From Tardiphaga sp. 709 (GTDB lineage Bacteria > Pseudomonadota > Alphaproteobacteria > Rhizobiales > Xanthobacteraceae), in NCBI RefSeq assembly GCF_032401055.1, contig NZ_CP135529.1, forward strand, positions 5,020,501-5,084,500: DNA of 64,000 nt, given 5' to 3'. Position 1 is the stretch's first letter, and each line of letters opens with the position of its first letter. The notes below the pieces were generated by a model that saw only the letters and a program-made list of their open reading frames with translations, did not search any database and was not told where the DNA came from. A program made the position numbers and the translations under genes. Positions 5,912 to 59,928 of the stretch are shown here, one piece after another.

Positions 5912-5939
5912 TTGACGTCGTTTCACCTCAGTATATATT
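5912..5939 (+). promoter_or_regulatory. sigma70-like promoter of candidate RNA copy 1
   Basis: TTGACG (5912-5917), 16-base spacer, TATATT (5934-5939), followed by CCC and a predicted start near 5946. Spacer length and the CC-rich stretch after the -10 box match the promoters ahead of the two repeat copies at 26796-26823 and 59607-59634. No gene starts within 400 bases downstream except the small frame at 6423, so it would drive either a noncoding RNA or a very long leader. Confidence 0.6.
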
Positions 5940-5945
5940 CCCATC

Positions 5946-6380
5946 CATCCCGCTCCACTTGAGGGAGCGTTACCGGACGCCGACTGGCGCGGGGCGGGAT
6001 GTGGCGCCTGCGGGCGGGAGGGAGACGTTCCTTTTCGCACTCGGGAGGCCTTGGGTCACCGTCCGGCCCCACTACGGGGGTCTGCCACTCATGCTGGCTG
6101 GACGTGGCATTGGTGAACGGCGGGAAACCGTCGGGATAAGCGGACTGCGGAGGTCTGCGCCATTGCCCGGAAGAACGGTCCCGGGGACAGAAATCGCCAC
6201 GATGGAGCGTCGAAAGGCGTTTCCGCGGCCTCTGCTGTCCGGCGATCCGGACACTACGCTGCGGCACTGTTACCAAGTCGCGCCTTTCGGCGCTTCATCT
6301 CCCTCATTCTTGAGGGAGGCCACCGGGACTGCCACTCACGCGTACAGGCGCGGGCAAGGACGGCGCGTGGCCGTCATCCA
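5946..6380 (+). ncRNA. candidate structured RNA, diverged relative of the 531-base repeat
   Basis: This stretch has no convincing coding frame but is full of hairpins: GCTCC/GGAGC near the 5' end, GTCCGG-cgat-CCGGAC at 6237-6252, GCGCC-tttc-GGCGC at 6280-6293, CTCCCTCA-ttct-TGAGGGAG at 6299-6318 and GACGGC-gcgtg-GCCGTC at 6359-6375. The first eight bases, CATCCCGC, are complementary to GCGGGATG at 5994-6001. Shared with the other two copies are CGCGGGGCGGGATGTGGCG at +43 (copies 2 and 3: +41, differing only by transitions), CTGCCACT at +137 (copy 2: +132) and a 3' GCAAG...GACGGCGC motif. Relationship to the repeat is inferred by eye. It could alternatively be the structured 5' leader of the gene at 6423. 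The 3' end is uncertain; no U-run terminator is present. Confidence 0.45.
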
Positions 6381-6422
6381 AGTCACTCATATCCAGTCAT
6401 CATCGTCACAACGGGAGTTCAC

Positions 6423-6740
6423 ATGATCATCTCGCAACACGACGCCTGGCATCTCGCGCAGCGCGCCAGGGACAAGAGCGACCTGGCGGCCAAGCGGCTG
6501 TCGGATATGATCGTCGCCGCCTGCATCGAGGAGATCGAGCGCGGCAATGCGAACATCCTTCGTACCCATCGCACTTGCGTCATCAAGGCCTGTCGTCGTG
6601 CACACCATTGCACAGGCAGCCGGCCGATCTGTCTGCTGTTTCAACGACGGCGCGTTTTGAATGCAGAGCAGCAGCAAGCGATGCTGGACGAGATGTATTG
6701 GCGTATCTTGGAGGCGCTCGTCGCCAGCGAGGCGGCGTGA
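6423..6740 (+). CDS. small hypothetical protein
   Basis: A 105-residue basic protein starting MIISQHDAWHLAQ, with ACGGGAG correctly placed before the ATG at 6423. The N-terminal half (residues 8-45) is predicted helical and amphipathic; residues 50-75 contain three Cys and many Arg (CVIKACRRAHHC), and the C-terminal helix is acidic (EQQQAMLDEMYWRILEAL). I do not recognise a family. It follows immediately after the candidate RNA at 5946-6380, so it may be translated from the same transcript. Codon use is ordinary for the window. A zinc-binding or nucleic-acid-binding role could be guessed from Cys/His/Arg but is not supported by a known motif. Confidence 0.5.
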   Translation: MIISQHDAWHLAQRARDKSDLAAKRLSDMIVAACIEEIERGNANILRTHRTCVIKACRRAHHCTGSRPICLLFQRRRVLNAEQQQAMLDEMYWRILEALVASEAA

Positions 6741-26625: not shown

Positions 26626-26795
26626 TTCAACCCTCCAAACGCAAACATTGCGCAGGCAACAAGCTATGGTCATCCGCTTTGTTCCATTGCCAGGCGGTTG
26701 AAATAACGGTTACGACGGGGTGGTCAGCAGCGACCGCGGTGCGTTGAGGCGATGACGGCGAGATACGAAGGGTGCAAAATATTCCTTCCCCTTTA

Positions 26796-26823
26796 TTGAC
26801 AATATTCCCTTATGGATTATTAT
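26796..26823 (+). promoter_or_regulatory. sigma70-like promoter of repeat RNA copy 2
   Basis: TTGACA (26796-26801), 16-base spacer, TATTAT (26818-26823). Seven bases later, at 26831, sequence identity with the copy at 59600 begins (GTCCTGCCCC). The spacer sequences of the copies differ while the boxes are kept, which argues for functional selection of the promoter. Confidence 0.7.
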
Positions 26824-26830
26824 CCTCTCT

Positions 26831-27361
26831 GTCCTGCCCCACCGAGAGGGGCGATCGCGATCGTCACGTTCGCGGGGTGGGATGCGGTGGACGCCGGAGA
26901 TGCGGCGTTACGCGGTTTGGGGGTGACGTCTGTCTTCGGGCAGGACGGATCTGCGCCAGCACTGCCACTGGCAAGGAGATGTTTGGCCTTGGGATGGACA
27001 AACCCCTGGACAGTGTGACGGACGACCAAGTCAAAACGCGTCCGGCTTACTCGCTTGAGGCTCCCTGTCCCTCCGCCCTGGGACCATCATTTTGGTGATC
27101 GGATCGTTCGCCAAGGCAAAGTGCAAGCAAGCCGAAAAAACACCGCAGGCGGAACGCTGGGCACTCGCTCGGCGCCTCCGAAAGTCCTGATGCATTACCC
27201 CCTTGCGGAAGACCGCATCGCATCAGGCCCAAGGGTGCAACGGGCACCCGGCGTTCCGCACGCCCTCTCACAAGGGGGCGGGAATGCAAGAGACGACGGC
27301 GCCCCCGCGCCGCAAACAATAGGGGTGATGACGCATGTCTGAAGGGGAGTGGATGTATGAC
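26831..27361 (+). ncRNA. 531-base repeat, candidate structured noncoding RNA (copy 2)
   Basis: Nearly identical over its whole length to the inverted copy at 59069-59600. The 5' GTCCTGCCC pairs with GGGCAGGAC at 26938-26946 to close a first domain that contains GCCCC/GGGGC, CGTCAC/GTGACG and ACGCC/GGCGT helices. Further kept stems are CCTGATGC/GCATCAGG, TGCGG-aaga-CCGCA, GGGTGC/GCACCC, GGCGT/ACGCC and GGCGC-cccc-GCGCC. Small frames in this region show no consistent reading frame between copies and no ribosome binding sites. The end of homology (GTATGAC, 27361) has no U-run. It is not flanked by target-site duplications or a transposase gene. An RNA gene family is the best reading; a non-coding mobile unit (MITE-like) is the alternative. 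Confidence 0.6.
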
Positions 27362-27410
27362 AGTTGAATCGGACGCAACGTGACGCTCCGTCGTCACCCC
27401 ACACCCCGCC

Positions 27411-27494
27411 GTCATGCCCGGCGAATGCCGGGTATCCACGCCTTGGCCGCAAGGGACATAAGACGTGGATGGCCGGGACAAGCCCGGCCATGAC
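27411..27494. repeat. palindromic intergenic repeat (CATGCCCGGC type)
   Basis: GTCATGCCCGGCGAATGCCGGG and its counterpart ending GGCCGGGACAAGCCCGGCCATGAC face each other around ACGCCTTGGCCGCAAGG; each half is itself a hairpin (CCCGGC/GCCGGG; GGCCGGG/CCCGGCC). Such units are widespread in intergenic DNA of Bradyrhizobium relatives. It lies between RNA copy 2 and the end of metH. Confidence 0.75.
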
Positions 27495-27602
27495 GTGGTG
27501 GTAGACCTGAGAGCATCGCGAAGCTCGCTTCGCGCCATCCGGCCATGACGTGTGGAGAGAGCGCAGATCATCACCAAGTGGCGCGTCTCAATCAGGACTT
27601 AT

Positions 27603-59030: not shown

Positions 59031-59068
59031 GGATGCATCTGGCGCCTGTGCGTCGTTGCGCATTCAAA

Positions 59069-59600
59069 GTCAAACAGCCACTGCGCTTCAGACATGCGTC
59101 ATCACCCCTGTTGTTTGCGGCGCGGGGGCGCCGTCGTGTCTTGCATTCCCACCCTCCTGTGAGAGGGCGTGCGGAACGCCAGGTGCCCGTTGCACCCTTG
59201 GGCCTGATGCGAATGCGGTCTTCCGCAATTGAGCGTGCATCAGGACTTTCGGAGGCGCCGAGCAAGTGCCCGACGTTCCGCATACGGTGTTTTTTCAGCC
59301 TGCTTGCACTTTGCCTTGGCGAACGGTCCGATCACCAAAATGATGGTCCCACGGCGGAGGGACAGGGAGCCTCAAGCGAGTAAGCCGGACGCGTTTCGAT
59401 TTGGTCGTCCGTCACACTGTCCAGGGGTCTTTCCATCTCAAGGCCGGCCGTCTCCTTGCCAGTGGCAGTGCTGGCGCAGATCCGTCCTGCCCGAAGACAG
59501 ACGTCACCCCATGAACCGCGTAACGCCGCATCTCCGGCGTCCACCGCATCCCACCCCGCGAACGTGACGATCGCGATCGCCCCTCTCGGTGGGGCAGGAC
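59069..59600 (-). ncRNA. 532-base repeat, candidate structured noncoding RNA (copy 3)
   Basis: Inverted copy of the element at 26831-27361, nearly the same length. Read on the minus strand, it begins GTCCTGCCCC at 59600 and keeps GGGCAGGAC for the closing helix, the CGCGGGGTGGGATGCGGTG motif at +41 (59542-59560), and the CCTGATGC/GCATCAGG, TGCGG/CCGCA, GGCGT/ACGCC and GGCGC/GCGCC stems. Differences from copy 2 lie mostly in loops or single-stranded parts. A protein product is unlikely, as frames differ between copies and there is no ribosome binding site. It ends before the sterol desaturase gene, convergent to it. End not sharply defined. Confidence 0.6.
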
Positions 59601-59634: not shown

Positions 59635-59669
59635 CGGAAAATAGGAAAAATGTTCGGGTGCTGCTTGCC

Positions 59670-59928
59670 GCCCCACACTGTCATTCCGGGGCGGCTGCGC
59701 GCCTTCGCGCAGACGAACCTCAGCCACTCCAATTGGTGTGGTTGGGAATCTCGACCTGTTCAGCGCAAAACACACCGAGATTCCGGGTTCGCGTCCGGCA
59801 AGTGCGGGCAGCGCCCCGGAATGACGAGCTTGGATCAGGATTCTCTGCCACTCCAATTGGAGTGCTGAGGTTCGAACTGCAGTGGCTTCGCCGCCTTCGT
59901 GCGCCCTCAGGCAAACCAATTGGTTTGC
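59670..59928. repeat. cluster of dispersed palindromic repeats with CCAATTGG cores
   Basis: Starts at TCATTCCGGGGCGG and holds the hairpin CGCGCCTTCGCGC, CTCCAATTGGTGTGG, GAGATTCCGGGTTCGCG and GCCCCGGAATGACGAG, matching the repeat at 8796-8948. Two perfect palindromes follow: CACTCCAATTGGAGTG (59849-59864) and GCAAACCAATTGGTTTGC (59911-59928). No gene is supported from 59635 to 60096. Confidence 0.7.

Follow-up and report, generated by a model that had tools for sequence, protein, structure and literature searches.

A dispersed multicopy family of predicted long structured RNAs in Tardiphaga sp. 709 and related bacteria

Features of the locus

We analysed a stretch of 64,000 nucleotides of Tardiphaga sp. 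709 (the window). On its forward strand, a unit at 26831-27369 is very probably the gene for a structured, apparently non-coding RNA of about 540 nucleotides that belongs to a dispersed multicopy family, judging from the comparisons below. A second copy lies on the opposite strand at 59600-59068. The two are 91-93% identical, and both start just 3' of a TTGACA-16-TATWWT promoter; in the BLAST search against the genome, the 59 kb copy matches at 91% over query bases 17-590 and at 93% over the inner 520. They were originally described as near-identical: the likeness is real and chance is excluded, but the wording is slightly strong for this level of identity. The start point was read directly from the sequence, where the TATTAT box is followed by seven bases and then by GTCCTGCCCC from 26831, as predicted. 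The copy on the opposite strand is also where it had been placed, starting at 59600 after TTGACA-16-TATATT. According to the alignment of the copies in this genome, the shared unit extends to about 27369. The original prediction overlooked its boxA-like end and a second subfamily (B) present at 5.9 kb in the window. All features are listed in Table 1.

The neighbouring genes of the two subfamily A copies in the window are unrelated, glpK-like and metH-like genes in one case and a sterol-desaturase-like gene in the other (names assigned by eye).

Table 1. Features of the RNA family in the window. R1 is a covariance model of the first 70 bases (5' domain) and R2 a covariance model of the 3' core.
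Feature	Position	Strand	Basis and details
Subfamily B promoter, TTGACG-16-TATATT	5912-5939	+	Read from sequence; directly 3' of AAAATAATCC
Subfamily B RNA copy (predicted)	5947-6400	+	R1 29.7 bits at 5947-6016; 3' limit approximate
Gene for 105-residue Cys4/Arg-rich protein (C-x4-C-R-R-x3-C-x6-C)	6423-6740	+	Behind the B RNA; GGGAG upstream of ATG
A/T-rich upstream motif AAAATATTCC	26776-26785	+	5' of the -35 box; alignments of copies in this genome
-35 box TTGACA	26796-26801	+	TTGAC at this place in 28/28 copies of this genome
-10 box TATTAT	26818-26823	+	Spacer of 16 in 28/28 copies of this genome
Subfamily A RNA gene (predicted)	26831-27369	+	Predicted transcript from 26831; conservation ends near 27369; 28 genomic copies, alignments
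5' terminal hairpin	26831-26883	+	GTCCTGCCCC 26831-26840 with GGGGTGGGAT 26874-26883; conserved GAGAGGGGCG and CGCGATCGTCACG inside; 42-sequence alignment
GCGGTGG	26884-26890	+	Proposed to pair over a long distance with ACACCGC (27140-27146) and to close the central domain; pairing count
3' core	27131-27310	+	Covariance model; R2 match, 133 bits
P1 arms	27145-27158 with 27250-27263	+	14 pairs, 97.2% of cells paired, two-sided changes at 4 pairs
P2 arms CCTGATGC / GCATCAGG	27186-27193 with 27220-27227	+	4 pairs counted, 97.4% of cells paired, 3 with two-sided changes
P3 arms GGGTGC / GCACCC	27233-27238 with 27244-27249	+	99.1% of cells paired, 2 pairs with two-sided changes
boxA-like 3' end GGATGTATGACA, then GTTGAAT	27351-27369	+	Alignment; two changes from GGCTGTTTGACA
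Second subfamily A copy (predicted)	59068-59600	-	boxA-like GGCTGTTTGACT, one change, at 59079-59068

Promoter, fold and spread of the family

A sigma-70-like promoter is found at 28/28 copies of this genome, with a spacer of 16 bases in all of them, compared with 2.7 on average after base-shuffling of the upstream regions, and at 39/45 copies of other genomes against 3.8 expected. The boxes are kept across copies while the spacer sequence varies. It had been stated that upstream of the unit the two window copies differ except for these boxes; the boxes are indeed kept, but 27/28 copies of this genome also score for a motif rich in A and T (AAACATTTTTTCC) that lies 5' of the -35 box, as do 19/45 copies of other genomes and 21/30 of G289, a closed Bradyrhizobium-like genome. 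Only 8/30 G289 copies pass the test for TTGACA/TATAAT (1.3 expected) because the box sequences differ there. The layout in G289 is AAAAATATTCCGCTT ... CAAATCA ... CATAAC, with AAATCA kept in all 30 copies read (L200, L209-L237). This layout, different yet conserved, suggests that another regulator or sigma factor may be used.

The fold was examined at both ends of the unit. At the 5' end, R1 matches 26831-26899 with 88.9 bits. The 9-base-pair closing stem that was originally predicted (26831-26839 with 26938-26946) is complementary in sequence but did not hold up, as 18/656 cells are broken and there are no two-sided changes among 73 Tardiphaga copies. For the local 5' hairpin, Table 1, only 3 of 729 cells are broken in the same 73 copies, and one pair shows a two-sided change; in an alignment of 42 sequences two-sided changes occur at 4/20 predicted pairs. 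The long-range helix between GCGGTGG and ACACCGC can form at least 6/7 pairs in 95/96 copies, but permuted partners pair equally well, so this count is uninformative.

The analysis of the 3' core started from 96 excised copies (7 more were omitted as the anchors were not found), which were thinned to 58. In these, 97.7% of the cells at 24 pairs are paired. The number of two-sided cells is 93, compared with 28 in shuffles and 0-12 when the partners are slid. By contrast, the nine pairs that show such a change are not exceptional in number, as 48/500 shuffles reach this count. The sequence of P2 varies between genera, and the helix arms change between genera, for instance GCGGAACGCC/GGCGTTCCGC, CAGGGAAGGCC/GGTCTTCCCTG and GGGGCGCC/GGCGTCCC. 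Compensatory base changes, which had been proposed as a check of the prediction, are thus found both in the 5' hairpin and in the 3' core helices, and in these alignments they are strongest in the 3' core. Read on the promoter strand, G-U far exceeds A-C at the predicted pairs (98:0 and 86:13), which argues that the RNA lies on that strand.

That no coding frame is kept agrees with our analysis: no frame of at least 60 codons is common to the 28 copies of this genome, the most widely shared one being present in 13/28. A comparison with Rfam 15 returned no match at the gathering score, neither in the window nor in 15 loci with copies or candidate relatives. A known Rfam RNA was therefore rejected, the sub-threshold matches being weak and mostly to unrelated microRNAs. 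By these searches the family appears to be an uncatalogued one of Bradyrhizobium-related bacteria. A set of small RNAs from Bradyrhizobium and Rhodopseudomonas, BjrC1505 and others, was reportedly described in 2012, and the family could overlap one of these. No account of the family was found in the literature searched, which included parts of PMC5082802 and PMC4842269. On the Bradyrhizobium plasmid NZ_CP100605.1, a "hypothetical protein" is annotated antisense over a partial copy (L312:666-1769); it is probably a spurious frame called on the RNA gene.

The family was correctly described as multi-copy, but the number of copies in this genome is at least 28 and not two. A BLAST search with the unit finds 28 subfamily A copies with 88-100% identity, and R1 finds the same 28 places plus two weaker ones. 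The proposed search of related genomes was also productive, with R1 matches in 154/291 genomes and in 18/41 genera of the family to which Tardiphaga belongs. When searched alone, G289 has 43 R1 matches, and in the large genus g48, probably Bradyrhizobium, many genomes have at least 17; outside this genome and G289 the copy numbers are mostly lower bounds, and the E-values of our custom covariance models are rough.

Across 297 genomes of the order, R2 gives 20 matches, 12 in the same family and 8 elsewhere, the latter weak. One genome of another family (G412) contains both domains in order, with 47.5 bits for R1 and 46 bits for R2. A further family (f34) shows by eye a similar anatomy, with an upstream TTGAC, a 5' hairpin, GCAYTATGACGGGG and a long core stem; 8/18 of its genomes match one such copy, and G502 has 26 BLAST matches, some of them pieces of a single copy. 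Among 20 stretches examined from f34 (18 from G502), 15 are closely similar, one is divergent and four are without the anchor. From these matches, weaker relatives appear to exist in other families of the order. A match in family f6 resembles coding sequence and was taken as chance.

In draft Tardiphaga genomes many matches are located at contig ends (G010:C1/C7, G010:C57, G005:C11 and others), and the RNA family appears to break draft assemblies.

The 3' boxA and the genomic places of the copies

The rRNA leader of this genome carries GGGCTGTTTGACA, the last 12 bases of which are the boxA GGCTGTTTGACA. This exact sequence occurs 20 times in the genome: 16 times at A copies, once in the rRNA leader (2915983) and three times just 3' of B copies (1233498, 4394231 and 4912322). 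That is, 19 of the 20 are 3' ends of the RNA family, while a reversed control pattern has three matches in the genome. That boxA coincides with the 3' ends of the family speaks for many members making contact with the Nus machinery. Among the A copies read, the exact boxA is found in 16/28 here, 10/10 in G006, 4/5 in G014 and 2/4 in G011 and G013, and it is scarce elsewhere, with 0/6 in G033 (one of them cut by a contig end), 0/4 in G017 and 1/30 in G289. A near-match lies 3' of the core in genus g15 and an exact one in g49. As boxA is absent from all copies read in some genomes, it looks like a module that is added or lost and not like the core function. In spite of the common boxA, a BLAST comparison of the element with the rrn locus yields chance matches only, and derivation from an rRNA operon was rejected.

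Action of Nus factors at boxA is established for Escherichia coli (PMC4807359; PMC5725501), and by analogy they would act likewise in the bacteria studied here. That the RNA family acts through boxA and Nus factors is a tentative proposal, which we put somewhat below an even chance. Alternatively, boxA could work in cis only, making the polymerase Rho-resistant beyond the RNA or tagging its 3' end for processing, while the RNA itself would do another job. This agrees with boxA being the last conserved element, followed in many copies by REP-like palindromes. We nevertheless find it unlikely, since boxA in rrn stands ahead of the RNA that is protected and not at its 3' end, and since no common sequence apart from these palindromes is found downstream of the copies.

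The genomic places of the copies were compared with those in four same-genus genomes, T. robiniae Vaf-07 (G001), T. robiniae LMG 26467 (G010), Tardiphaga sp. P9-11 (G002) and Bradyrhizobium sp. NFR13 (G005). For 26/28 copies the place is occupied in a sister species with at least one flank matched, and a separate comparison gave the same for copies 12 and 27. In P9-11, the place of copy 12 holds other sequence without the element, and that of copy 27 a truncated copy. Orthologous copies are hardly more similar than non-orthologous ones, with identities of 0.908 vs 0.903 against NFR13 (flanks 93%) and 0.836 vs 0.827 against P9-11 (flanks 91.5%). The difference is at most 0.014 in 8/10 species pairs, the exceptions being LMG 26467 with NFR13 (+0.038, 2 pairs) and with Vaf-07 (+0.016, 1 pair). 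Divergent sister copies are under-represented in these figures because the sister copies were chosen by an exact 34-base 5' pattern. By eye, the alleles form mosaic blocks across copies, and this, together with the small advantage of orthologs, argues for gene conversion. On the sequence comparison, the copies are in concerted evolution at fixed places, and recent transposition is improbable as their source. rRNA genes undergo concerted evolution, and to our knowledge it is mainly for these genes that it is known on such a scale in bacteria.

Dispersed copies would also be given by a mobile or selfish repeat that is non-autonomous (MITE-like, REP-associated or RNA-spread), with a structure and promoter that serve its own propagation. 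Multi-copy motifs, especially with inconsistent orientation to the neighbouring genes, are often placed among the mobile or repeat candidates (PMC11109978). The REP-type palindromes beside many copies and the P9-11 site without the element fit this explanation as well, but it is improbable for several reasons. All 28 places are occupied in at least one sister species; the flanking direct repeats of the 28 copies are no longer than in a swapped-partner control, with no target-site duplication beyond it; and the promoter boxes are held although the spacer varies. Further, blastn at E 0.001 found no match in 50,697 phage records, and the A and B copies of the window have no match in 72,556 plasmid records. 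The longest terminal inverted repeat in three copies examined, without a control, is 7 bases. A G289-type copy matches four plasmid records, one of them partially (22% of the query, 72.8%) on a Bradyrhizobium plasmid; the other three are 32-35 base matches 3' of the R2 core, in what is by eye REP-like sequence. Given the occupied places and the absence of target-site duplication above control, a transposable element was rejected, as was phage or plasmid cargo from the record searches.

In summary of the comparative evidence, the lack of an Rfam match, of a common frame and of target-site duplication above control, the compensatory changes, the G-U excess and the promoter support the original reading, in which long structured non-coding RNAs are encoded by a multi-copy family that has its own promoter.

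Convergent genes surround 15/26 classified copies in this genome, a context that is not repeated in G289 (7/23 copies).

Subfamily B, its linked protein and the possible function

Subfamily B has at least nine further matching places in this genome (15 candidates scored), and it has matches in 19/41 genomes searched, this one included. From 26 distinct cores cut out, 19 from loci other than that of the window were aligned and seven, cut short by the anchor, were omitted. The predicted fold is branched, with 90 pairs of which 30 have two-sided changes, though the structure was drawn from the same 19-core alignment and without a shuffle control. In this alignment 122/1685 cells are unpaired, and the ratio of G-U to A-C is 165:45.

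A gene for a Cys4/Arg-rich protein with C-x4-C-[RQ]-R-x3-C-like spacing follows 13/28 B cores read, in 12 genomes including this one; the 28 cores are mostly the best B match per genome and not a random sample. C52, C57, R59, C63 and C70 are invariant in 12 aligned members. No credible match to the protein was found in Pfam, NCBIfam, PHROGs or PDB sequences. The fold of the 105-residue protein, predicted without an alignment, has a mean pLDDT of 60.6. This protein is the best candidate partner of the RNA family.

The linked gene could instead mean that the RNA is a cis-acting leader or terminator, controlling the downstream gene as an attenuator or autogenous leader, and copy c26 of this genome is also followed by a co-directional frame that overlaps it in the gene call; however, the gene downstream of the A copies is antisense in 21/27 cases here and the two window copies have unrelated neighbours, and we regard this as very unlikely. 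Equally unlikely is a nucleoid-associated, chromosome-organising role. In Escherichia coli, naRNA4/REP325 comprises many dispersed structured RNAs that are bound by HU and bridge DNA, and the dispersed copies adjoining REP-like elements, the strong hairpins and a dose set by copy number would suit such a role, but sequence and fold look more conserved than it needs, and the promoter, the boxA and the protein-linked paralogue are left unexplained.

Our preferred explanation, which we consider rather probable as a whole, is that the copies form a dispersed family resembling rRNA genes, whose large RNA products act in trans and are linked to the Nus machinery; we infer the transcription, the action in trans, the Nus binding and the protein partnership. 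Each A copy would be a separate transcription unit with a sigma-70-type promoter, and the copies, which stay at fixed, dispersed places, would be homogenised by gene conversion, as rRNA genes are. The many genes, their homogenisation and the conserved promoter argue that the product is needed in quantity. Most likely the product works in trans, either as a folded, stable RNA or as an RNP, in a dose that would need many genes. Three parts are predicted for the fold of the RNA: a hairpin at the 5' end, a central domain and a long stem in the 3' core. In copies that have boxA at the 3' end, it may bind the NusB-S10 (NusE) and SuhB machinery that reads the boxA of the rRNA leader, and the RNA pool would then compete with, or report on, rRNA antitermination. 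The paralogous B RNA can precede the gene for the Cys4/Arg-rich protein, a possible partner of the family.

A bolder version, which we regard as doubtful, is that order-wide large RNAs, with dozens of homogenised genes per genome, form a dedicated RNP with the Cys4/Arg-rich protein, and that by means of the 3' boxA they serve as a titratable decoy for the Nus antitermination complex, or as its sensor, setting rRNA synthesis where rRNA operons are few. The genome studied here has one 16S match. Bradyrhizobium and related bacteria serve as models of nitrogen fixation and photosynthesis. An RNA gene of about 0.5 kb, present 28 times here and 43 times in G289 and without an Rfam model, would be an unassigned RNA gene family of unusually large size, and the terminal boxA and the linked Cys4 protein provide two direct, testable handles on its function.

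With rRNA operons the family shares homogenisation within a genome, a sigma-70-like promoter and boxA. It differs in having no rRNA-like sequence, in the position of boxA at the 3' end and in its 28 copies compared with the single 16S match. According to PMC12286853, OLE, GOLLD and ROOL are likewise long, highly structured non-coding RNAs in a similar size range whose function is poorly understood; phages and prophages carry the genes for ROOL and GOLLD, whereas the present family matched no phage record. The lack of an Rfam match, dozens of chromosomal copies, concerted evolution, the promoter and the terminal boxA set it apart from all three. The control of suhB by Nus factors is an example of boxA in a non-ribosomal RNA recruiting the Nus complex (PMC5725501). 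There, boxA is in a gamma-proteobacterial mRNA leader, while here it is at the 3' end of a stand-alone RNA; the boxA list of that study, by its own account, did not consider non-coding RNAs. The Rhizobiales-1 motif is another RNA candidate of Rhizobiales, tabulated without an Rfam number in PMC2864571.

REP-type palindromes flank many copies (L001-L028), GAGATTCCGGGTTCGC...CCCCGGAATGAC upstream and TCATGCCCGGC...GTGGATGGCCGGG downstream. Near the window copies they are located at 27400-27500 and 59660-59850, and they resemble published Br-REP sequences. Br-REP1 and Br-REP2 of Bradyrhizobium are repeated intergenic palindromes of the same bacteria, and REP-like sequences stand beside many copies of the present family; according to PMC5082802 the Br-REPs are short palindromes, whereas the family described here is a unit of about 540 bases with its own promoter.
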